Of a stretch of 64,000 nt of DNA, positions 7,766-62,177 are shown piece by piece; position 1 is the stretch's first letter; each line of letters opens with the position of its first letter. Both the position numbers and the translations under genes were made by a program. The DNA is from a bacterium. GTDB taxonomy: Bacteria; Elusimicrobiota; Elusimicrobia; Elusimicrobiales; UBA9959. A model generated the notes under the pieces. It was not told where the DNA came from. It did no database searches and saw nothing but the letters and a program-made list of their open reading frames with translations. Location of the stretch: assembly GCA_021811315.1 (NCBI GenBank), contig JAJZPF010000003.1, positions 62,001-126,000 of the forward strand. The letters are read 5' to 3'.

Positions 7766-10393
7766 ATGCTTAAAAAACTCGTTGAAGCCATCATAGGCTC
7801 AAAAAGCTTGCGCTCCATGAAGACCATCCAGCCCCTGGTCGACCAGATAAACGCGCTCGAAGATGAAATTTCAAAACTTACTGACGCCGAACTGCGCGCC
7901 AAGACCGACGAATTCAAGGAAAGGCTCGCCAAGGGCGAGACCCTCGACGACCTGCTGCCCGAGGCCTTCGCCTGCGTGCGCGAGGCGTCGAAGCGCGTGC
8001 TGAAAATGCGCCACTACGACGTGCAGCTCATCGGCGGCATAGTGCTGCACCGCGGCAAGATAGCCGAGATGCGCACCGGCGAGGGCAAGACCCTGGTGTC
8101 CACCCTGCCCGCCTACCTCAACGCCCTCACCGGCAACGGCGTCCACATCGTCACCGTCAACGACTACCTGGCCAAGCGCGACAGCCAGTGGATGGGCCCG
8201 GTGCACGAATTCCTCGGCCTTACCGTAGGTTCCGTGCAGCACGACATGAAGAACGAAGAGCGCCGCGAGATGTACAACCGCGACATCACCTACATCACCA
8301 ATAACGAGGTCGGCTTCGACTATCTGCGCGACAATATGGTGATGGAGAAGGACGAGCGCGTGATGCGCAGCCGCAATTTCGCCATCATCGACGAAGTCGA
8401 CTCCATCCTGGTGGACGAGGCCCGGACCCCGCTGATCATCTCCGGCCCCGCCGAGGAATCCACCGACAAGTATTATATCGTGAACCGCGTCATCCCGCTG
8501 CTGACCCCCCGCTTCATCACCGAGAAAGAGGAGATCGAAGCCAAGCGCGACGGCGTGGACCTGGGCAAGGGCTTCGACGCCGTGGTGGACGAAAAGAGCC
8601 ACACCGCCACGCTCACCGAGGAAGGCGTGCACAAGGCCGAGAAGATCCTGGGCGTGGGCAATATCTACGACGACGTCAATTCCGAGTGGTCCCACCATAT
8701 CACGCAGGGCCTGCGCGCCCACCACCTGTTCCGCAAGGACGTGGAATACGTGGTGAAAGAGGGCGAGATCATGATCGTGGACGAGTTCACCGGCCGCCTG
8801 ATGCCGGGCCGCCGCTGGTCGGACGGCCTGCACCAGGCCATCGAGGCCAAGGAAAACCTCCGCATCAAAGAGGAAAACCAGACCCTCGCCACCATCACTT
8901 TCCAGAACTACTTCAAGCTCTACAATAAGCTGTCCGGCATGACCGGCACGGCCATGACCGAGGCGGACGAATTCTGGGAGATCTACCACCTGGAAGTGGT
9001 GGAGATCCCGCCGAACCGCCCCCTGGTCCGCAAGGACTCCCCCGACCGCATCTACCGCACCGAGCGCGAAAAGAACAACGCGATAGTGATGGAGATAGAG
9101 GAGCGCTGGCGCAAGGGCCAGCCGATGCTGGTGGGAACCCGGTCCATAGAAAAATCCGAGAAGTTCGCCACGATGCTGCGCACCAAGGGTATCCCGCACC
9201 AGGTCCTGAACGCGAAGTACCACGAGATGGAAGCCCAGATCATAGCCCAGGCCGGGCGCAAGGGCCAGGTGACCATCGCCACCAATATGGCCGGCCGCGG
9301 CACCGACATCGTGCTGGGCGGCAACCCGCCGCTGCCGGAAGAGCACGAATACGTCAGCGCCACCGGCGGCCTGTGCGTGATGGGCACCGAGCGCCACGAG
9401 AGCCGCCGCATCGACAACCAGCTGCGCGGCCGCTGCGCGCGACAGGGCGACCCCGGCTCCTCCGTTTTCTACGTTTCCCTCGAGGACGAGCTGATGCGGC
9501 TGTTCGGCTCCGAGCGCATCTCGATGATCATGGAGAAGCTCGGGATGGAAGAGGGCGAAGTCATCGAGTCCGCTCTGGTCAGCCGCCAGATCGAGGGCGC
9601 CCAGAAGCGCGTGGAGGGCATGAACTTCGACGCCCGCAAGCAGCTGCTTGACTACGACAACGTGATGAACAAGCAGCGCCTGGCGGTCTACGAGCTGCGC
9701 AACGCGGTGCTGGACGGCCAGGGCGTGCCCGAGCGCGTGAAGAGCATGATCCACGAGGCGGTGGAGGAGCAGCTTGACCTTAACGCCCCGCAGGACCAGG
9801 CTTCGCAGCTGTGGAACATGGAGGCGCTCGGTATTTATCTGAAGAAGATCGCCGGCTTCGACCTGGCCTATACGGCCGACGAGGTGCACGGGCTTACGCG
9901 GCCCGCGCTTTACGACGAGGTGATGAAGCGGGTGGACGCGGCCTACGCGGCGCGCTTCGAGGCTTTCGCTGAGCGGAACGTGGATTTCGCGGAGCTGCAG
10001 CGGGTGCTGCTGCTGCAGATCATGGACCATATCTGGAAGAACCACCTGTTCGAGCTGGACCACCTGAAGAAAGGCGTGGGCCTGCGCGCCTACGGGCAGA
10101 AGGACCCGCTGATCGAGTACCAGAAGGAGTCCTATTCTTTGTTCGAATCGATGCTGGCGCGCGTGCGCGACCAGATGGTGGAATATGTTTTCCGGATCCA
10201 GCTGCCGCCGCGCCCGGTGGCGCGCCCGGCGGTGACCGAGGTTTCCTCCGAGGAAGCCAAACCCAGGCCGCAGGCCCAGGCGCCGGCGCCGAAGCCGGCG
10301 AATAAATTCATAGATTCCAAGACGGGGCGCAATGATCCCTGCCCTTGCGGATCCGGGAAAAAATACAAGAAGTGCCACGGGGTTAACGGGTAG
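7766..10393 (+). CDS. secA: Preprotein translocase ATPase SecA
   Basis: SecA drives post-translational export through SecYEG by ATP hydrolysis at the inner membrane. The chosen start is ATG 7766 ([13 protein letters not shown]), the usual SecA N-terminus; a TTG at 7748 is in frame but less likely. Visible hallmarks are Walker A MRTGEGKT, the [19 protein letters not shown] helicase segment, the preprotein-binding insertion, [10 protein letters not shown] and the [15 protein letters not shown] motif VI. The C-terminus has the SecB/lipid-binding zinc motif [14 protein letters not shown]. At 875 residues it is normal length. Codon use is strongly G/C-ending, as expected for a highly expressed gene. 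A structured repeat starts immediately after its stop codon. Confidence 0.99.
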
Positions 10394-10540
10394 GGCTGCC
10401 GAGGGGGGCGGAACGCAAAACGCGGTCGGCCACACCGTGGCCTCCCTCCTCCTCAGGGCAAGAAAGTGGCGGTGCGCCACGCGGCGCTATGCAAGCCTCG
10501 GCCTTCGGAAGGTTTTGCTAACCCGCCCCCCTCAGCAGCC
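10394..10540 (+). repeat. Structured dispersed repeat family 1, copy A
   Basis: The 16-bp ends pair (GGCTGCCGAGGGGGGC with GCCCCCCTCAGCAGCC, one mismatch). Inside are the conserved blocks GGAACGCAAAACGCG, GGCCACACCGTGGCCTC and GGTTTTGCTAACCC plus variable hairpins such as GTGGCG-GTG-CGCCAC. Copies B (58664-58803) and C (62007-62133, minus) keep the inner blocks but have different, still complementary, ends. It begins at the base after the secA stop codon and ends 37 bp before lnt. Confidence 0.9.
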
Positions 10541-10577
10541 TCAGAATTGCTTTAGGGGTTCCCGGAATAACTAAAAG

Positions 10578-14250: not shown

Positions 14251-15498
14251 ATGTTAAGGAAAGCAACCGCAGCGTTAGCCATAATCGCCGCAGTCTCCGC
14301 CCAGGTGTCAGCAATATCTTTTGACACGCTCAACAAAACCACCCTGCAGGATGAGATCTCAGCTCTCGAGCTGAGCGTTCCCCAGCCTGCCACCGCAGTT
14401 GAAAAGGCCGCCACCGACAAAGAATGGACCATCATGGTCTTCGTGAACGGCAAGAACAACCTTGAGCCGTATGCGCTTAAAGACATGAACGAGATGGAGA
14501 TGATAGGCTCCTCCGACAAGGTCAATATAGTGACCGAAGTGGGCCGCATCGCCGGTTACGACTCCACTGACGGCGACTGGAAGACCGCCCGCCGCTACCT
14601 TGTGAAGAAAGACAATGATACTAAGAAGATATCTTCTCCTATAGTGCAGGAGCTTGCCAAAGTCGACATGGGCGACTACAAACACCTGGTGGAGTTCACC
14701 AAGTGGGCCCAGGCCGCCTACCCTGCCAAGCATTATATGCTGATAGTCTGGAACCACGGCGCGGGCTGGATAAAATCCCGCGGGATGGAAGCCGCCAAGG
14801 GCATCTCCTACGATGACCAGACCGGCAACCACATCACCACCCCCCAGCTGGGCCTGGCGATGAAAGCCATCGGCAAAATAGACGTGATCGGCACCGACGC
14901 CTGCCTCATGCAGATGCCGGAAGTGAACTACGAGATCAAAGACTACGTCGACTACATAGTGGCCTCCGAAGAGACCGAGCCCGGCGACGGTTATACCTAT
15001 AACACCTTCCTCGGCCCCGTGGTCGCGAAGCCCACGATGAGCGCCAAAGAAGTCGGCGCGCAGGCCGTGAACGCCTACGCCGACCATTACGGCACCCAGG
15101 ACCACACCCAGAGCCTGGTGGACGCTTCCGCGATGAACGGCCTCATGCCCCTGGTCAACAAGTTCGTGGCCGCCGCGATGGCCGCCAACGAGAAAGACCT
15201 GGTCAAGTCCGCCCTCGGCAGCGCGCAGTCCTACGCTTATGCCGAGAACAAGGATATGTGGCACTTCCTGAGCCTCTACGCCGCTTCCTCCAAGGACGCG
15301 AACGTGAAAGCCGCCGCGAAGTCCCTGCAGGATTATATCACCGGCAAACTGGTGCTGGTTAACCGCGCGAACAGCACCTATAGCGACTCGCATGGCCTGG
15401 CCGTGTATATGCCCAACTACACTAACTCCTCCTATGCCGCCCTGGCCTGGTCCAGGGACGGTCAGTGGGACGAGTTCATCGCCTGGTATACGAAATAA
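14251..15498 (+). CDS. Exported C11 (clostripain-like) cysteine peptidase, paralog 1
   Basis: A 415-residue protein with a signal peptide (MLRKATAALAIIAAVSAQVSA). The C11 peptidase core starts at EWTIMVFVNGKNNLEPYALK (about residue 71). The catalytic dyad is His169 (VWNHGAGW) and Cys218 (GTDACLMQM), followed by the ASEETEPGDGYTY loop that usually shapes the S1 pocket. Clan-CD enzymes of this family cleave after Arg or Lys and often self-process. The gene has a GGAGG-type site, its own promoter cluster and a terminator. The paralog at 15668 is about 170 bp downstream. The likely role is extracellular or periplasmic protein breakdown or maturation. Confidence 0.9.
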   Translation: MLRKATAALAIIAAVSAQVSAISFDTLNKTTLQDEISALELSVPQPATAVEKAATDKEWTIMVFVNGKNNLEPYALKDMNEMEMIGSSDKVNIVTEVGRIAGYDSTDGDWKTARRYLVKKDNDTKKISSPIVQELAKVDMGDYKHLVEFTKWAQAAYPAKHYMLIVWNHGAGWIKSRGMEAAKGISYDDQTGNHITTPQLGLAMKAIGKIDVIGTDACLMQMPEVNYEIKDYVDYIVASEETEPGDGYTYNTFLGPVVAKPTMSAKEVGAQAVNAYADHYGTQDHTQSLVDASAMNGLMPLVNKFVAAAMAANEKDLVKSALGSAQSYAYAENKDMWHFLSLYAASSKDANVKAAAKSLQDYITGKLVLVNRANSTYSDSHGLAVYMPNYTNSSYAALAWSRDGQWDEFIAWYTK

Positions 15499-15625: not shown

Positions 15626-15667
15626 ATGTATATGAAACGCAACATCTGCAAAGTCCTGGAGGTCTCC

Positions 15668-16999
15668 ATGTTACGCAAACTGTCAATATCGGCCGTAGCC
15701 GTTTCCATGTTCGCAGCCATTGCCTCGGCCGAAGTGAACTTCGACGGCGGCAAGAACCTCAATATAAAGGAAGAGATCGCCAATGCCGGCGTCTCGGTCC
15801 CCGAGCCCACCCAGGACAAGAGCGGAGTGCTCGACTGGTTCTTCGGCAAGCCGCCTGCGGCGCCCAAAGCCGGAGCCGAGTGGACCATAATGTTCTTCGA
15901 GAACGCGAAGAACGACCTTGAACCCTACCTTCTTAAGGACCTCAACGAGATGGAGATGATCGGCTCCACCGACAAGATCAATCTGGTCGCGCAGGTCGGC
16001 CGCATAGACGGCTACGACGATTCCGACGGGGACTGGAAAGGCGTGCGCCGCTACCTTATAACCAAAGATACCGATACCGCCACGATGGGCTCCAAGATGC
16101 TCCAGGACCTGGGGCAGTCCGATATGGGCGATTATAAAACCCTGGCCGAGTTCGCCAAATGGGCCAAGGCTGCCTACCCCGCCAAGAAATATATGCTGAT
16201 AATCTCCAATCACGGCGCGGGCTGGACCAAGGGCCTCGACGGGCGCCCCGTGAACAGGGGCATCTCCTACGACGAACAGTCCGGCAACCACATCAATACC
16301 CCGCAGCTGGGGCTGGCCATGAAAGAGATCGGCAAACTTGACGTGCTTGGCACCGACGCCTGCCTGATGCAGATGGCCGAAGTCGACTACGAGATCAAAG
16401 ACTACGTCACCTATATAGTAGGCTCCGAGGAAACCGAGCCCGGCGACGGCTACACCTATAACGACATGCTCGGCCCCCTGGCCAAGAAGCCCTCGATGGG
16501 CGGCGCCGAACTGGCCAAGCTGACCGTCGACGCTTACAGCGACCACTACGCGGCGCAGAAGACTGGCGCCACCCAGAGCTATGTGCTGTCCGCTTCCGTG
16601 CCCAGGCTGCTGACCCTGACCAATGCCTTCACCGCCGCGATGACGGCTTCCGGGGACAAAGCCCTGGCCAAGAAAGCCCGCGACGGCGCGGTCAAGTTCG
16701 CGATGGACGAGAACAAGGACCTCTACGACTTCCTCCGCCTGGTGCTCGCCGAGACCAAGAGCGAAGCCGTGAAGACCACCGGCCAGACCCTGATGACGTT
16801 CATCACCGGCGAGCTGGTGGCGCACAACCGCACCAGCAACTCCCCCGGCGGCTACTGGAGCGGCCCGGTGGATTACTCTCCCGCCAAGGGCATAGCGGCC
16901 TACTTCCCGAGCGGCGCTCTGGGCGACGGCTACGCCGACCTGCAGTGGGCCAAGGCCTCCCAGTGGGACGAGTTCGTGACCTGGATCAACCAGCCTTAA
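15668..16999 (+). CDS. Exported C11 (clostripain-like) cysteine peptidase, paralog 2
   Basis: The start at 15668 is set by CTGGAGG 5 bp upstream and gives a clean signal peptide (MLRKLSISAVAVSMFAAIAS). A longer frame to 15626 would overlap the promoter. The peptidase core mirrors paralog 1 throughout, with His182 (ISNHGAGW) and Cys232 (GTDACLMQM). Differences are a Trp-containing insert near residues 40-60, a DGRPVNRG insertion after the catalytic His and a Ser/Gly/Pro-rich loop near residue 385. These suggest the pair diverged in specificity after duplication. It has its own promoter and terminator, so the two can be controlled separately. Confidence 0.9.
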   Translation: MLRKLSISAVAVSMFAAIASAEVNFDGGKNLNIKEEIANAGVSVPEPTQDKSGVLDWFFGKPPAAPKAGAEWTIMFFENAKNDLEPYLLKDLNEMEMIGSTDKINLVAQVGRIDGYDDSDGDWKGVRRYLITKDTDTATMGSKMLQDLGQSDMGDYKTLAEFAKWAKAAYPAKKYMLIISNHGAGWTKGLDGRPVNRGISYDEQSGNHINTPQLGLAMKEIGKLDVLGTDACLMQMAEVDYEIKDYVTYIVGSEETEPGDGYTYNDMLGPLAKKPSMGGAELAKLTVDAYSDHYAAQKTGATQSYVLSASVPRLLTLTNAFTAAMTASGDKALAKKARDGAVKFAMDENKDLYDFLRLVLAETKSEAVKTTGQTLMTFITGELVAHNRTSNSPGGYWSGPVDYSPAKGIAAYFPSGALGDGYADLQWAKASQWDEFVTWINQP

Positions 17000-21652: not shown

Positions 21653-21930
21653 TGGCAAACACAGGACGAAAATCGGTCGCGCTGCTGGCTGCCGCCTTCG
21701 TTCTCCTCCGCGCCCCAGGCGCGGCCGCCGCAGGAGGGTACGAGAATATTTCCGCTCAGATAATGAAATGCGCCGAGGACAACTCCTTTAAAAAAATAGC
21801 CGTGCTGGAGTTTTCCGCCAAAGGCGGCGCGGGCAAGATGACACGGGCACGTAGTGGAAACACTGTCCTGGCGCATTCTTGCGCGTATTTAAAAGGCCAT
21901 TTCGCCAGAAATGGCTATAAACGCGCTTAA
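21652..21930 (+). pseudogene. Truncated exported CsgG-like protein, fused to repeat sequence
   Basis: The first ~62 residues are protein-like: a signal peptide (ALLAAAFVLLRAPGAAAAGG), then YENISAQIMKCAED and KKIAVLEFSAKGGAGK, which resembles the start of a CsgG/TolB-like domain. At about 21837 the frame runs into dispersed repeat family 3, and the last ~30 residues are merely translated repeat. The rest of the gene is absent. I infer a gene cut by repeat insertion or by recombination between repeats. An upstream palindrome overlaps its start. Confidence 0.65.
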
Positions 21931-22004
21931 AGGGCTTTTAGGAAAAAAAAAGGGGGGTGTTTTGGCCGGGAAAACGCCTCCAGGATCCACCGGCGGCGGT
22001 TGTA
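21837..22004 (+). repeat. Dispersed repeat family 3, copy 1
   Basis: About 165 bp with high similarity to 55727-55884. Shared landmarks, in order, are GGAAAC-CTGTCCTGGCGC, TTCTTGCGCG, the hairpin GGCCATTTC-GCCA-GAAATGGC, ACGCGCTTAAA, a G-rich tract, GCCGGGAAA and CGGCGGCGGTT. Both copies begin inside an interrupted reading frame. Confidence 0.88.
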
Positions 22005-26222: not shown

Positions 26223-26710
26223 ATAATCCTTAAGTCAGACCGGACTGAAGTCAACGTCCGGCCGGAGGGTATCTTCTTGGTGAAGAAAGAGAGATCTTTC
26301 AAGTATTATACCGCATTCGAAAAAAACTTATTCTTACAAGGCCGCGGTTGTTGGCGCGGGCCTTGCCGCCAACGGCGGTAAGGGGCGCGCGGCCGCGCAG
26401 GGGCGGGGCAGGGCGGTGGCTGCGCCAGGCCGCGTAAGGAACTCCACTTTTATCAGGAACTCCGCCCGCGAGTAAATGCAAATTTGCCCCGGACGGTAAG
26501 CGGCAATACGCAGGGGAACCGCCCGTGTTGCCCGGTCCGCCAGCCCCGGCCAGTTCGTGTCCACGGACGGCGGTCCTGAAATCAATCCCTCGTGCGGGGA
26601 CTTCATCGTAAGCCGGATGGGAAAGTAAAACGCGCTGAACCGGGCGGAAACGGGCGGATTATTTTCGCGCGAAGAAAGCGGAGCAATAAAAGACGCGCGC
26701 GGGGAGACCG
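26223..26710. other. Gene-free stretch with repeat family 2 copy a
   Basis: The left half holds dispersed repeat family 2 (26326-26458). In 26459-26710 I see no convincing gene; a leftward frame from 26606 runs into the repeat and is probably spurious. Confidence 0.5.
26326..26458 (+). repeat. Dispersed repeat family 2, copy a
   Basis: About 133 bp closely matching 56304-56445, with a shortened relative at 38591-38664. Shared blocks are AAGGCCGCGGTTGTT, a hairpin (CCTTGCCGCC-AAC-GGCGGTAAGG here), GCGCGGCCGCGCAGGGGCG and CCGCGTAAGGAACTCCA followed by TTTTATCAGG. Confidence 0.88.
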
Positions 26711-38590: not shown

Positions 38591-38664
38591 AATCTTATTC
38601 CCGTCAAGGCCACGATTGTTGGCGCGGACGCGCAGGGGCGGGGCCGCGTATATCCTTTTTATGG
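38591..38664 (+). repeat. Dispersed repeat family 2, shortened copy
   Basis: It carries the starting block, an AAGGCC...TTGTTGGCGCGG stretch, CGCGCAGGGGCGGGG and CCGCGTA...TTTTTAT in the same order as copies at 26326 and 56304 but lacks the middle hairpin and part of the third block. It looks like an internal-deletion derivative. Confidence 0.7.
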
Positions 38665-38779
38665 GGTACTGCTTGGGGTTTGGGTTAAGGAGGCGCCTAC
38701 GCGGCCCCGGTAAATTCTTTTCCAAACCCTCAAGCCGTTCAGGTCTCCGTCGGGGAGTTATGCGGTACAGCTAATTTGA

Positions 38780-38785
38780 TACAAT
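38780..38785 (+). promoter_or_regulatory. Likely -10 element of the B12 receptor transcript
   Basis: TACAAT lies just before the riboswitch and would start RNA near 38792. The -35 is weak (GTTATG at 38757). Confidence 0.4.
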
Positions 38786-38789
38786 AATC

Positions 38790-38882
38790 ATGTTCCAGCG
38801 GAGGAATCCGGTTTAAATCCGGAGCTGCCCCGCAACGGTAAGGTCCGTCCCTGACGGACTAAGCCCGGTCTACCGCCGGAAC
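38790..38882 (+). ncRNA. Cobalamin (adenosylcobalamin-type) riboswitch
   Basis: The conserved core is clear: GGAATCCGGTTTAAATCCGG, then GAGCTGCCCCGCAACGGTAA, and the B12 box AGCCCGGTCTACCGCC. It lies 86 bp upstream of the btuB-type gene. The following GC-rich hairpin (around CCACCCGGTGG) and the sequence up to the ribosome-binding site (GGGAGGAAAA) are the likely expression platform. When cobalamin is plentiful it should reduce expression of the receptor and the downstream membrane protein. Confidence 0.95.
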
Positions 38883-38967
38883 TGTCGCAGCCTGCGAGGG
38901 ACGGCCTTTTTCCACCCGGTGGAGAAGCCGCTTTTGTCATGGCGCGGCGATTCTCTCGGGAGGAAAA

Positions 38968-40851
38968 ATGAAAACAGCACCTGTGTTCCTTGCGGCCATC
39001 CTTGCCCTGTGCGCTCCGCGGGCTTATTCACAACAAGACAGCGACGTTTATCTCTCCATCAGTAAATCCGGTCTGTCCAGAATTGAAAGACCTACGGACG
39101 CCATAAATCTGTATATCCCGTATCAACAGCGTGGGGAGGCCTCTTCAGCGGCCGATCTGCTTGATACCGCGCTTCCCGCGCTGGTAAAAAGCGCTGGTGA
39201 TAACGGCCTTGCCACGGCAGGCCTGCGCGGTTTCGCCTCCAAACAAACCGCCGTTTTCTTCGACGGTATGCGCATCCCGGCCGACCTTACCGGCACGGTG
39301 GACCTTTCCGTAGTTCCGGCCGGGGATATTGAAAGGGTGGAAATTCTGCCCGGGGCGCAGTCCTCCATACACGGAGCGGACGCCGAAGGCGGCGTTATAA
39401 ACTTTATAACGCGCGCCCCTAACCCCGGCGTTACGCGCGCGGATCTGAGTTCCACGCTATCCTCGTACGGCGGGAACTCAGGCGCGCTTTCGTTCATGAG
39501 CGGAACGGACAGGGTTAAAACCTCCGTAAGCGCTTCAAGGGAAGCTTCGGACGGCTTTCAGCAGAATTCGGCCGCCCGCAAAGAGTTCTACAGCGGCAAA
39601 ACCGTTATTGCCCTTAACAATGGCGGCAAAGTTTCCGTTAACGCCATACGCAGTAATTCCGAGATCGGCGTGCCCGGCGGAACGCCTGTGCCTATCGACC
39701 AATGGAACGGCAGCCGGGAGCGGGCGGCCAACTCGCTTACCGACGGCATGCGCTCAAGCCTGGGGCTGGCCCGCGCCGCGCTTGAAATGCCGCTTAATAG
39801 CGATGTTTCTTATTCGCTGTCCGGGCAGTACGGGGTAAACAGGCTTTTCTCCCACACTAGTTATGGCGACTCGCTTACCCGCACACTAAGCGATACGGCT
39901 ATGCTCAGTTTCTCTTTTTTAAATAAGGGAGAGGCCGGAGTTGAATACGACAAAAACATGCTGAGGTCCGACACTTACGGCGATCATTTTACGCAGAATA
40001 CCGGGCTTTTCGCCCAGTGGGCGCTGAAACCGCTTAAAGGCCTTAGTGTTATTCCATCCGTGCGCCACGATATTAATGTGGCCTATGATAACCAGACCAG
40101 TCCCAAGCTGGCCATGGTCTACTCTCCGGATTCAGTCTGGAAGTTCTCGGCACAGACGGGGCGCGCCTGGCAGGCGCCTACCTTAGCGGACCTTTATAAT
40201 ATCAAGGGGCCGAATAATCCCTGGGGGCCTTCGATCAGTGATATCTCGCCCAACCTGAAGCCCGAATCTTCCTGGCAGACGCAGACCGGCGTGGCCGCGA
40301 ATTTCGCTTCGGGGATATGGACCTCGCTTAACGGTTATTACGCTGATGTTAAAGACCGTATCGCGCTGGATTCCTCAAAGAACTGGGCGGCCTATAATCT
40401 GGATTCGGCCTTCAACGAGGGAGTGGAAGCGGGTCTGGGTTACAAAGGCGGGACGTTCAGTGCCGGGCTGGGCTATGTTTATAACCTCAGCAAGGGGCGT
40501 ACTGCCGGCAATTACAAGCTGCTCTCTTTCAGCCCCAAATACCGGTTTACCGCGGACGCCGCGCTTAAAACCTCTCTGGCGGATATTACGGCAAAGGGGT
40601 ATTACAGCGACAGGCAGTATTCGGCTGTGGATTACGGCGGCGCAAAGATCCCGTCTTATTTTACCGCCGACCTGTACCTCTCGCGTAAGTTCGACCGGTT
40701 CGAGGTTTTCGCCGGGGCGGATAATATCTTTGACGCACACTACGCCCAGACAGCTGATATGTATAACGGCTCCTGGCCGGATTATTACCCGCGTTATTTT
40801 CCGCGGCCGGGCCGCGTGCTGAAATGCGGGCTCAGCGTAAGGTTTATATAA
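38968..40851 (+). CDS. btuB: TonB-dependent vitamin B12 receptor (BtuB-like)
   Basis: A 627-residue outer-membrane receptor with a signal peptide (ending AYSQQ). The N-terminal plug (about residues 50-160) has DLLDTALPALVKSAGDNGLAT, LRGFASKQTAVFFDGMRIP and IERVEILPGAQSSIHGADAE GGVINFIT, the usual plug landmarks. The 22-strand barrel follows, ending in a Phe-containing C-terminal strand (LKCGLSVRFI). Regulation by the upstream cobalamin riboswitch makes B12 or another corrinoid the likely ligand. Energy would come from TonB-ExbBD encoded elsewhere. Confidence 0.95.
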   Translation: MKTAPVFLAAILALCAPRAYSQQDSDVYLSISKSGLSRIERPTDAINLYIPYQQRGEASSAADLLDTALPALVKSAGDNGLATAGLRGFASKQTAVFFDGMRIPADLTGTVDLSVVPAGDIERVEILPGAQSSIHGADAEGGVINFITRAPNPGVTRADLSSTLSSYGGNSGALSFMSGTDRVKTSVSASREASDGFQQNSAARKEFYSGKTVIALNNGGKVSVNAIRSNSEIGVPGGTPVPIDQWNGSRERAANSLTDGMRSSLGLARAALEMPLNSDVSYSLSGQYGVNRLFSHTSYGDSLTRTLSDTAMLSFSFLNKGEAGVEYDKNMLRSDTYGDHFTQNTGLFAQWALKPLKGLSVIPSVRHDINVAYDNQTSPKLAMVYSPDSVWKFSAQTGRAWQAPTLADLYNIKGPNNPWGPSISDISPNLKPESSWQTQTGVAANFASGIWTSLNGYYADVKDRIALDSSKNWAAYNLDSAFNEGVEAGLGYKGGTFSAGLGYVYNLSKGRTAGNYKLLSFSPKYRFTADAALKTSLADITAKGYYSDRQYSAVDYGGAKIPSYFTADLYLSRKFDRFEVFAGADNIFDAHYAQTADMYNGSWPDYYPRYFPRPGRVLKCGLSVRFI

Positions 40852-55726: not shown

Positions 55727-55884
55727 GATGACATGGGCACGTTGTGGAAACGCTGTCCTGGCGCATTCTTGCGCGAATTTAAACGGCCATTTCGCCAGAA
55801 ATGGCCGTAGACGCGCTTAAAAGGCTTTTAAGGCGGGGTATTTTTGCCGGGAAAGCGCCTCCTGGGGCCGCCGGCGGCGGTTAT
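55727..55884 (+). repeat. Dispersed repeat family 3, copy 2
   Basis: Closely matches 21837-22004. The hairpin ACGGCCATTTC-GCCA-GAAATGGCCGT is longer here (11-bp arms) than in copy 1. It ends near GGCGGCGGTTATA, where similarity stops. Confidence 0.88.
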
Positions 55885-55959
55885 ACCCGACTTTGACACT
55901 TAAACCCTGAAAATCCGCCTTGTCTCCAATGAGGGAGGGCTGGGAAATCCGAAAATGTA

Positions 55960-56163: not shown

Positions 56164-56303
56164 TACCGCGGCGAGACGGGTTTACTGAATATTTACAAGT
56201 CGGGAGCCAAAGGGCTCCTTAGATAAGGCCGCTTCAGGCTCAAAGCGACGAGCCTTACTTAAGGTTTATTATAGCAAGACAATGCGATTTTTTATTACCG
56301 GGA

Positions 56304-56445
56304 AATCTTTTCTTGCAAGGCCGCGGTTGTTAGCTCGGGCCTTACCGCCGCAGGCGGTAAGGGGGGGGCGCGGCCGCGCAGGGGCGGGGCAGGGCTGTTG
56401 CGGCCCTGAGAAGGGCCGCGTAAGGAACTCCATTTTTATCAGGGA
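56304..56445 (+). repeat. Dispersed repeat family 2, copy b
   Basis: About 142 bp matching 26326-26458 in order. The second hairpin is CCTTACCGCC-GCA-GGCGGTAAGG: relative to copy a, the G-U pair has become A-U, keeping the stem. A third hairpin, CGGCCCT-GAGA-AGGGCCG, is present only here. Confidence 0.88.
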
Positions 56446-58492: not shown

Positions 58493-58894
58493 TTTAGTGT
58501 CCTCCAAAAGATTTTCTGCCTGCACCCATAGTCTAGCAACACCCCCATTAAAACAACCTTAGAACAACATTAAAAGATTTTAATGTTGCGCGAGGGAAGC
58601 AGGGACGCGATATATAAAGTCGGGCCTTGCCACAGCGCAGGAATCTGGTCAAGCGCCAGGCGGCTGGGCGGCCTACCGTGCGGGCCGGAACGCAAAACGC
58701 GTTCGGCCACACCGTGGCCTCACTCCGTGTTCGCCCGCCGGGCTATGCAACCGGCGGGCTCTCCGAGGGTTTTGCTAACCCGGCCCGCACGGTCTCCGCC
58801 CAGGTTGCCCGCCTTAACGGAAAACGCGCCGCCTGACAAAGTGAGCGACGGGCCCATACCCTTGCCAGGCCCCCGACTACGCTTCTCGCGGTTC
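58493..58894. other. Intergenic region holding repeat family 1 copy B
   Basis: No gene was recognised. Reading frames over 58583-59290 and 58627-58836 are translations of the repeat or shadows of the kinase gene. Confidence 0.5.
58664..58803 (+). repeat. Structured dispersed repeat family 1, copy B
   Basis: The conserved core GGAACGCAAAACGCGTTC...GGTTTTGCTAACCC is closed by the arms CTGGGCGGCCTACCGTGCGG and its partner ending near 58803. Arms differ from copy A but remain complementary. The internal hairpin GCCCGCCGG-GCTATGCAA-CCGGCGGGC is specific to this copy. Confidence 0.9.
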
Positions 58895-60364
58895 TTATAT
58901 CTTTTTATCTGTTGGCGGGAAGACTACGGTGAAGGCGGCGCCTTGGCCGGGGGGGCTTTCGGCTTTTATTTCGGCGCCGTGGGCTTCGGCTATGGACCTG
59001 GCTATGGCGAGGCCGAGGCCGAAGCCGGAGGAGCTGCGCGAGGAGTCGGCGCGGTAGAAGCGCTTGAAGATGTGGGGCAGGTCAGCGGCCGGTATCCCGG
59101 GGCCGCCGTCCGATACGCTTACCGCCGGCCGCCCGGCTTCCATGTATATATTGACCTTTACCTTTCCCCCGGGGCCGCCGTATTTCACGGCATTGTCGAG
59201 CAGGTTAAGGAAAAGCCGGCTGAGCTGGCCCTGGTCCGCCACGACTTCCAGCGGCTCCGCGCCGCTGGACAGTTCGATGGAGGTCCCTGACTTCCCGGCC
59301 AGGACCGAGAGGCTGCCGGCCGCGCCCTCCAGCAGGTCCTTCAGGTTCACGCGGGAGCGCTCGAGGCGCACCTCCCTGTTGTCGAAGCGGGCGAGGGTGA
59401 GCAGGTCTCCCACTATCTTGGACATCTTCTCGGTCTCCTCCAGGTTGCTCTGCAGTACGGCGGTATATTCGCCTACGGAGCGGGCTTTCTTCAGCGCCAC
59501 CTCCAGCTCGCCTTTAAGGATGGTCAGCGGCGTCTTCAGTTCGTGGGAGACGTCCTGGATGAAGCGCCGCTCCGAAAGGAAAGAATCCTCGAGGCGCGCC
59601 AGCATGGCGTTGAAGAGGTCGGCCAGCTCGCGGATCTCGTCGCGGGTCCGCGGCGGCTTGATGCGCAGGCTCAGGTTCTCGGCCGTGATCTGGCGGAGGG
59701 TGCGCGCCATGTTCGCCACCGGCCGCAGCGCCACGCGCGCGAAGAACATGCCGAAGGCCCCGGTCAGCAGCACTATCAGCGGAACCATGGCCGTCATCAT
59801 CACGCGCAGGTTCTTCAGCGTGAACCGGGTGTGGTAGGTGGAGCGGTAGGCCTGCACTATGTAAACGGCCCCGCCGGTGCCGGAAGCCGGGGTGGCGTAA
59901 GAGCGGTAAGTGTCATCGGGGCCCTCTCGCCCGGCGATCTTGATGGTGTCGTAGACGGCATTGCCTTTCAGGGCGTCCTTCAGCGTCCGTTCGGGCAGTT
60001 CCGGGGCTCCGGCGGCGCCGCGCGAGTTTTCCAGCTCGGCCCCGGAAGCGTCGAGGATGCGCAGTTCGACGGCGGCCTGCTTGGGGTCTTCGGTGCGCAG
60101 GCGCACCAGCTCCGGGGCTATCTTGAAGAAAGCGCCGCCTTTGGCCGCCGAGGCGGAATACCTGCCCACCTCTATGCGCTCGGTCTCCAGGTAGGCTTCC
60201 AGCGCGTCGGCGACCCCTTCGCCGCGGACCGCCAGCAGCTGGTCCAGGTTCTCGTCGAGGCTGTTTTTGAGATTGTTGTAGACCACCACGCTGAAAAGGG
60301 TAAGCGTGACGGCGAGCGCCGCCGCGTACCAGAGAGTTATCCTGAACCTCACGGAATTGAACAT
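58895..60364 (-). CDS. CusS-like HAMP histidine kinase
   Basis: A 489-residue membrane kinase. Membrane helices near residues 8-28 and ~185-205 enclose a ~155-residue periplasmic sensor. A HAMP linker (VALRPVANMARTLRQITAEN) is followed by HisKA (FIQDVSHELKTPLTILKGEL) and HATPase_c (RLFLNLLDNAVKYG, DGGPGIPAADL, GFGLGLAIARSIAEAHG). It resembles the heavy-metal sensor kinase group by domain layout. Its regulator gene lies 5 bp upstream and they are co-transcribed. The stimulus cannot be read from sequence. Confidence 0.93.
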   Translation of the reverse strand: MFNSVRFRITLWYAAALAVTLTLFSVVVYNNLKNSLDENLDQLLAVRGEGVADALEAYLETERIEVGRYSASAAKGGAFFKIAPELVRLRTEDPKQAAVELRILDASGAELENSRGAAGAPELPERTLKDALKGNAVYDTIKIAGREGPDDTYRSYATPASGTGGAVYIVQAYRSTYHTRFTLKNLRVMMTAMVPLIVLLTGAFGMFFARVALRPVANMARTLRQITAENLSLRIKPPRTRDEIRELADLFNAMLARLEDSFLSERRFIQDVSHELKTPLTILKGELEVALKKARSVGEYTAVLQSNLEETEKMSKIVGDLLTLARFDNREVRLERSRVNLKDLLEGAAGSLSVLAGKSGTSIELSSGAEPLEVVADQGQLSRLFLNLLDNAVKYGGPGGKVKVNIYMEAGRPAVSVSDGGPGIPAADLPHIFKRFYRADSSRSSSGFGLGLAIARSIAEAHGAEIKAESPPGQGAAFTVVFPPTDKKI

Positions 60365-61972: not shown

Positions 61973-62006
61973 AGCTAAATCTCCAGATCCTTAAATCGTA
62001 AACCGA

Positions 62007-62133
62007 GGCCGCGTGTCGGGCCGGGTTAGCAAAACCTTCCGAAGGCCGAGGCTTGCGTAAGCGCCGAGGCCTGAGGAGGAGTGAGGCCACGGTGTGGCCG
62101 AACGCGTTTTGCGTTCCGGCCCGACATGCGGCC
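62007..62133 (-). repeat. Structured dispersed repeat family 1, copy C
   Basis: On the minus strand the arms GGCCGCATGTCGGGCC and GGCCCGACACGCGGCC pair, with one wobble or mismatch. The core matches copies A and B from GGAACGCAAAACGCGTTC to GGTTTTGCTAACCC. The internal stems include CCTTCGGAAGG. It lies between ugd and the decarboxylase gene. Confidence 0.9.
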
Positions 62134-62177
62134 CAGGGACAACGCAAAATCCCTCCGGATTCGGAAACCGGGGCTGG

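Follow-up and report, generated by a model that had tools for sequence, protein, structure and literature searches.

In the 64,000-nucleotide stretch of DNA that we analysed (the window), the stop codon of secA (positions 10391–10393) is directly followed by copy 1 of a structured repeat, a solo unit of what we call the A type at 10393–10541 on the plus strand (118.2 bits). On this strand, the fold places the two arms of an outer stem, P1, at 10393–10410 (5') and 10524–10541 (3'). Inside P1, an inner stem, P1b, is formed by GCAAAAC (5' strand, 10415–10421) pairing with GTTTTGC (3' strand, 10512–10518, placed by the fold and by covariation). The hairpin P3 (GGCCAC-ACC-GTGGCC, 10424–10446) contains a TC/TC internal loop and a covarying N-X pair, and the variable hairpin P4 (10447–10511) carries the conserved tip GC-TAT-GC-AA and, in this copy, an extra nested hairpin. 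A sequence-only reading of this DNA had described three copies of the repeat, and we found each of them in its place, with the third on the minus strand; GGAACGCAAAACGCG has exactly three matches in the window, all without mismatch. We correct that reading's account of the inner blocks on one point: GCAAAAC is the pairing partner of GTTTTGC, although for copies 2 and 3 the minimum-energy fold has a local hairpin at each of these blocks instead. With short flanks included, copies 1, 2 and 3 fold with z scores of –3.51, –7.69 and –7.24 relative to their own dinucleotide shuffles, and for each copy none of 200 shuffles folded as well.

Copy 2 is an A-type unit at 58669–58798 on the plus strand (133.9 bits). 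It is real, as had been read, but makes up only the left half of a composite. The composite's left terminal motif GCGCCAGGCGGCTGGGC lies at 58653–58669 on the plus strand, and the remnant of an inverted B-type unit (a CCCATACCCTTGCC arm) together with the right terminal motif lies at 58847–58897 on the minus strand, as judged by eye from intact composites. When we compared loci, the stretch 58589–58916 was without a counterpart at the orthologous site in the genome of a second, closely related species (G019), where the edges of the empty site are ragged. The stop codon (58895–58897) of a called gene on the minus strand (58895–60364) falls within the right terminal motif, and the composite insertion may set the end of this reading frame. 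Copy 3 is a solo A-type unit at 62006–62135 on the minus strand (141.4 bits); the unit at its site in G019 has another core and points the other way. The window also contains two or more further families of dispersed, GC-rich repeats (21837–22004 and 55727–55885; 26324–26457, 38605–38644 and 56303–56443), an AdoCbl (cobalamin) riboswitch matched by Rfam at 38776–38911, upstream of a called gene at 38968–40851, and two similar open frames in tandem (14251–15498 and 15626–16999) that share stretches with 75–81% identity.

A unit is about 134 nt long. Its fold consists of an outer stem of about 20 bp, an inner stem and a pair of hairpins whose mismatched loops are partly conserved. From the outside in, the order is P1, an internal loop AAC/TAAC, the 7-bp P1b GCAAAAC/GTTTTGC, and the hairpins P3 and P4. 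P1 is loose in sequence, and in 89 units the bases from about position 21 on, further out, pair no better than chance; this end of pairing near 20 bp, together with the loose arm consensus, led us to reject the idea that the arms were copied from target DNA on insertion. Among 29 copies from the genome that contains the window, A22, T128 and A130 of the AAC/TAAC loop and the AA at the P4 tip are invariant, and P1b appears as GAAAAAC/GTTTTTC in two. P3 has the tip CACACCGTG and mostly TC/TC mismatches, and its N-X pair covaries fully (UA, CG or GC) and is paired in all 29 copies. We had considered loop-loop kissing of separate blocks and dropped it for a nested stem of GCAAAAC with GTTTTGC; both the N-X pair of P3 and the variant GAAAAAC/GTTTTTC favour this arrangement. 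P4 is variable around a conserved tip GC-TA(T/C)-GC-AA, and its TC/TC mismatches are paired as GC/GC in one subtype.

In the B type, the P3 and P4 tips are similar to those of the A type, P1 is GGCAAGGGTATGGG/CCCATACCCTTGCC, and P1b is a G-C version, GGCGGGC/GCCCGCC. A third, longer palindromic type (CCCTGTTCGCTCATAAGC ... CACACAGTG ... GCTCACAGGGAGC) was seen in L261, L263, L265 and L274, which are the secA junctions of genomes G009, G014, G025 and G013, with a divergent form in G013. Within P3 and P4, additional small hairpins are a recurrent feature. The nested hairpins AAGAAAGTGG..CCACGC and CACTGCAGTGGCC..GGCCACCCG appear to be modules inside P3 or P4 of L001, L002, L028 and L136, and one nested hairpin of L002 is absent from the orthologous G019 unit. 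Insertion sequences, of each of which only about 100 bases are assembled, interrupt units L074 (end of contig C15), L011 (start of C6), L019 (start of C1) and L017 (start of C34) with L078 (end of C28). Three of the interrupted units share one insertion sequence (a frame beginning MTQIHRSYN) at the P4/P1b junction and one holds another; a search for IS110 as the interrupting element gave no PF01548 match in the window's own genome, a draft that may miss repeated elements.

That genome (G000) is a 63%-complete draft of 2.67 Mb, in which we found 46 BLAST matches to copy 1 and 89 matches, some of them partial, to a covariance model built from the 29 copies. A BLAST search with copy 2 gave matches in all 31 other genus genomes searched and in none of 29 genomes from other genera. 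The covariance model had matches in 46 of the 340 phylum genomes searched: 32 belong to the genus, 13 to the same family but to different genera, and one, whose match is marginal (E 1e-4), lies outside the family. Carriers are thus 32 of the 32 genus genomes searched and 45 of the 59 family genomes. Among the 80 contig matches listed, some have Elusimicrobia, Elusimicrobiales or Elusimicrobiota in the title, and the others come from 'bacterium isolate SKS' bins, whose titles name no phylum. The repeats, which are non-coding and mostly intergenic, were found in one family of Elusimicrobiota, a lineage of groundwater bacteria.

The central claim of the sequence-only reading was that selection acts on the structure of the repeat and not on its sequence, and it proposed a covariance model and a covariation test on the arms. 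We built such a model, and changes on both sides of pairs far exceeded those in shuffles. In the 29 own-genome copies, where the structure was drawn from one of the sequences and the alignment was not fitted to the model structure, 162 cells were changed on both sides of a pair, compared to 49.0 in shuffles. In 103 matches (101 distinct), which came from 80 of at least 100 contig stretches and whose alignment was fitted to the model's structure and hence leans towards it, 728 cells were changed on both sides, compared to 214.0 in shuffles. None of 500 shuffles of this alignment reached any of five measures, and slid versions were likewise nowhere near; 91.1% of its cells pair, and both-side changes are present in 38 of the 46 pairs. 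Arm changes without compensation and ends that vary independently would speak against the claim, and we did not see this pattern: in the inner ten pairs of P1, 918 of 948 cells with letters are Watson-Crick. The structure is retained while letters change on both sides of its pairs, which strongly supports the claim.

To ask in which strand the pairing is kept, we compared G-U and A-C cells, since a structure that works as RNA from one strand should clearly favour G-U. In 97 units, which are what is left of the 103 rows after removal of duplicates and of sequences shorter than 115 nt, we counted 3914 Watson-Crick, 68 G-U, 83 A-C and 303 other pair cells. The loosely paired outer eight pairs of P1 have 14 G-U and 49 A-C cells, the latter being 49 of all 83. 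The inner ten P1 pairs have 11 and 8, P1b 2 and 3, P3 3 and 3, the base of P4 31 and 16, and the rest of P4 7 and 4. When we restricted the count to pairs in which standard cells make up 90% or more (38 pairs), a filter that by itself favours G-U, we obtained 54 G-U and 25 A-C cells, and 24 of the 54 are one U-G pair at the base of P4, without which the counts are 30 and 25. As a control, in 32 distinct tRNAs aligned at fixed positions the acceptor and anticodon stems had 12 G-U and no A-C cells; with the T stem included the counts were 31 and 8, with 20 other cells given by misplaced T-stem arms. G-U and A-C are thus near parity in the repeat, and RNA from one strand is disfavoured. The near-parity is moderate evidence for folded DNA, for both strands being used equally, or for copying of one arm from the other; it is only approximate, and it would also fit RNA folding from both strands, or in both orientations over time.

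We also looked for the T-tract of an intrinsic terminator after the stem and found runs of at least four T in 9 of 89 units, compared to 14 of 89 further out. Rfam gave no match over a unit in the window at the gathering score, and in four loci searched up to E 1 it gave two weak matches, neither over units. To place the units relative to genes, we used 106 model matches (the 103 and the three in the window) and gene calls made in this analysis. Of these, 57 lie in tandem gaps, 22 in convergent and 2 in divergent ones, while 14 overlap a called gene and 11 are at edges; the gene pairs available are 508 tandem, 82 convergent and 63 divergent. In the tandem gaps, 36 units are oriented as the genes and 21 are antisense to both.

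We examined two orthologous junctions by eye. Between secA and lnt, 30 loci hold 11 A-type units (one of them cut), 7 B-type units, 4 of the third type with CACACAGTG and 1 of a fourth; 6 loci are without a unit and 1 is ended by the contig. Overall, 23 of the 30 loci have a palindromic unit of one type or another after secA, which suggests a host function there. At the junction of copy 3, 15 of 16 loci are readable and seven have A-type units. Those of G000 and G012 share the strand of the gene, and those of G019, G008, G022, G031 and G003 are on the opposite strand. The remaining readable loci have no unit, another palindrome or a different next gene. Short tandem arrays (TCGAGAATCGGGA-like and CAGATTAT-like) are present beside units or replacing them, at about 363590–363660 of contig C26 in G019 and at the secA junction of G024 (L277).

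These data bear on the possibility that the units are structured RNAs in 3' untranslated regions (an mRNA stabiliser, a Rho-related or bidirectional terminator, or a regulatory RNA) that work from either strand. The strong folding, the unpaired loops that are kept inside covarying helices, the U-G pair at the base of P4 in 24 units and the long presence at the secA site fit such a role, as do the small number of units in divergent gaps and the 28 of 57 tandem-gap units that lie within 25 nt of the upstream stop codon. However, the G-U excess is weak at most, orientation changes at a single site, more than a third of the tandem-gap units (21 of 57) are antisense to both neighbours, and neither a T-tract nor an Rfam match was found for the units. 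We regard 3'-UTR RNA as unlikely. Of the three explanations that the sequence-only reading had offered, a structured RNA, taken as RNA from one strand, is disfavoured by the weak G-U excess, the flips of orientation and the missing T-tract; the other two, a protein-binding site with structure and a mobile element's folded DNA intermediate, both stay candidates.

To follow individual units between species, we compared G000 with G019. For 88 own-genome units with a locus, both flanks were colinear in 23 rows (1.6 Mb of G019), and 11 sites had an A-type core that passed our filter in both species (sites 49 and 78 were left out, as no core passed). At these 11 sites the mean identity of a core to its ortholog is 0.82, despite flanks that are 89–98% alike, compared to 0.97 (G000) and 0.98 (G019) to the best copy in the same genome, a value that is the maximum over 45 and 32 other copies, respectively. 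The best same-genome copy beats the ortholog at all 11 sites in G000 and at 10 of 11 in G019; at site 16, the core is nearly unchanged between species (0.99). In contrast, arms have a mean identity of 0.82 to their orthologs and 0.58 to other units, and at 7 of the 11 sites the orthologous arms are the best match among 33 (they rank second, third, sixth and twelfth at sites 1, 2, 23 and 39). Two of the 11 sites (0 and 3) are inverted between species; site 0 (C30:87303) is an inversion of the whole unit: once it is turned, each side matches at all 18 of its arm positions. As cores are closer within a genome while arms are closer to the ortholog, cores evolve in concert and arms mostly follow the site. 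Cores are exchanged, sometimes flipped, inside arms that tend to stay.

One way to explain this pattern is a structure-guided cassette exchange, in which a recombinase would read the folded strand and swap or invert the branched core inside stems owned by the site. If so, each site would keep its address in its self-complementary arms and draw its core from a genome-wide pool; we regard this as quite unlikely. A separate proposal, for the pairing itself, is that a mutational process keeps the palindromes paired, with one arm of a hairpin serving as template to correct the other and with little or no selection. Changes in the repeat are mostly Watson-Crick on both sides, two of the three arm differences between species at C45:11579 are paired double changes, and the TC/TC loop of P4 has turned into paired GC/GC in one subtype, all of which speaks for such correction. 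Set against this, the other mismatched loops (AAC/TAAC and the AA of the P4 tip) are kept in 29 copies and pairing ends at a defined length of about 20 bp. When we summed arm pairs over ten usable sites, aligned by their cores and with sites 16 (indel-shifted), 26 (nested unit) and 78 (misparsed, with a nested insertion) dropped, 137 were unchanged, 33 were changed on one side, 18 were changed on both sides to another Watson-Crick pair and 12 were changed on both sides otherwise. These counts also speak against it, and hairpin-templated correction seems to us distinctly improbable.

Some units are joined in head-to-head inverted pairs that form MITE-like composites of about 420 nt, without evident coding capacity. 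Three of the 23 colinear rows are empty in G019, and they represent two composites, the one with copy 2 and one at C8:129287–129627. The latter is the only clean case, with TAT on both sides of the insert as a possible target site duplication. We found no empty site for a solo unit: the other 20 colinear rows hold 109–393 bases in G019, with a unit confirmed in 11 and further ones seen by eye in part of the rest. Two terminal motifs, searched in 1.6 Mb of G019, pointed to no evident parent element. We also considered that some inverted pairs with wide spacing might enclose transposase cargo; by eye, the frames between them look ordinary. Of the 59 family genomes, 17 have the RVT_1 reverse transcriptase; 16 of these belong to the 45 carriers, and neither G000 nor G019 is one of the 17.

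The sequence-only reading had pointed to a linked HUH/TnpA-type enzyme, and we asked whether the units are a REP/REPIN-type family moved by a RAYT (Y1, HUH) transposase. Y1 transposases (PF01797) are present in 27 of 32 genomes, and the copy number, the intergenic 3' position and the opposed dimers of the units resemble REPs and BIMEs as described in excerpts of PMC2817692, PMC3733652 and PMC3116915. GTGG, reported as a degenerate REP tag in one species, was found near the two unit ends in 9 and 4 of 89 units, compared to 1 and 2 further out. However, linkage to these enzymes did not hold up: of the 86 PF01797 matches we examined 30 loci of 2.3–3.4 kb, and none holds a unit or the P3 motif, while the 5 genomes without PF01797 still carry units. 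Nor did we find an excess of the tags GTAG (6 and 2 of 89 near the ends, 4 and 3 far from them) or CGTC (0 and 0 near, 3 and 2 far), and the units are 134 nt long and branched. Movement by RAYT is highly improbable, and neither the Y1 loci, nor the reverse transcriptase survey, nor the terminal-motif search in G019 yielded a candidate enzyme for the units.

In the literature within our coverage, which most subscription journals fall outside, we found no description of this repeat family. The units share with REPs, BIMEs and REPINs that they are high-copy intergenic palindromes near gene 3' ends, present as singlets and opposed dimers. In excerpts of the REP literature, compensatory changes are reported in the REPIN spacer hairpin (PMC3116915), which is a likeness, and GT pairing is often observed in GTAG REPs (PMC3733652), which is a difference. 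The units differ from all three in their 134-nt branched form, their kept mismatched loops and their variable outer arms around a conserved core; they work like REP/BIME and MITE elements, and we do not file them as REPs because our tests found neither a GTAG or CGTC excess nor RAYT linkage in the 30 loci. The likeness to bacterial MITEs belongs to the composites, with their inverted halves, their length, their lack of evident coding capacity and their discrete insertion, seen cleanly at one empty site that may carry a 3-bp duplication. Unlike MITEs, solo units stay put while cores exchange, each end is itself a branched palindrome, and no parent transposon emerged from the motif search in G019 or from the wide-spaced pairs inspected by eye. 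The double-hairpin elements (DHE) of Allomyces and the repetitive hairpin-forming elements (RHE) of sponges are, like our units, hairpin-forming repeats in intergenic DNA; according to excerpts of PMC2800124, they are mitochondrial, with proposed mobility and no settled mechanism. They differ from our units in being smaller and in organelle genomes, and the sponge RHE keeps its stems and has substitutions in loops, which is the reverse of the Elusimicrobiota units (PMC2800124, excerpts).

Taken together, the data establish dispersal, structural constraint, free orientation, homogenisation of cores, inversion and the insertion of one composite. We favour, at slightly better than even confidence, a reading of the units as non-coding REP/MITE-like structured palindromic repeats, constrained as folded DNA (or in both strands), subject to ectopic recombination and moved by a trans-acting enzyme. 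In this REP/MITE-like reading, the constrained form would be a folded DNA strand (a hairpin or a cruciform), or both strands equally. A recombinase or transposase acting in trans would use the folded unit as its substrate, and so would ectopic recombination. Ectopic recombination or conversion, probably seeded in the conserved block of about 35 nt and the GTTTTGCTAACC block, would exchange cores; flips would arise between the two self-complementary arms; and composites may be moved by an enzyme acting in trans. The host function that the secA site suggests is a feature that the REP/MITE-like reading does not need; that our searches linked no enzyme to the units and gave a single clean empty site, that of a composite, also counts against this reading.

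Integron attC sites are recombination sites of variable sequence, at which the structure and bulges of a folded strand serve for recognition. They keep their end boxes and vary inside; unlike them, the Elusimicrobiota units keep the core and vary at the ends. Small bacterial repeats are usually recognised by their sequence, whereas in this family the shape is kept, the sequence is not and orientation is free. The units amount to a natural experiment, open to counting, on the way in which palindromic DNA keeps its pairing as it evolves, and they give a concrete target for a search, a putative enzyme that recognises hairpins.
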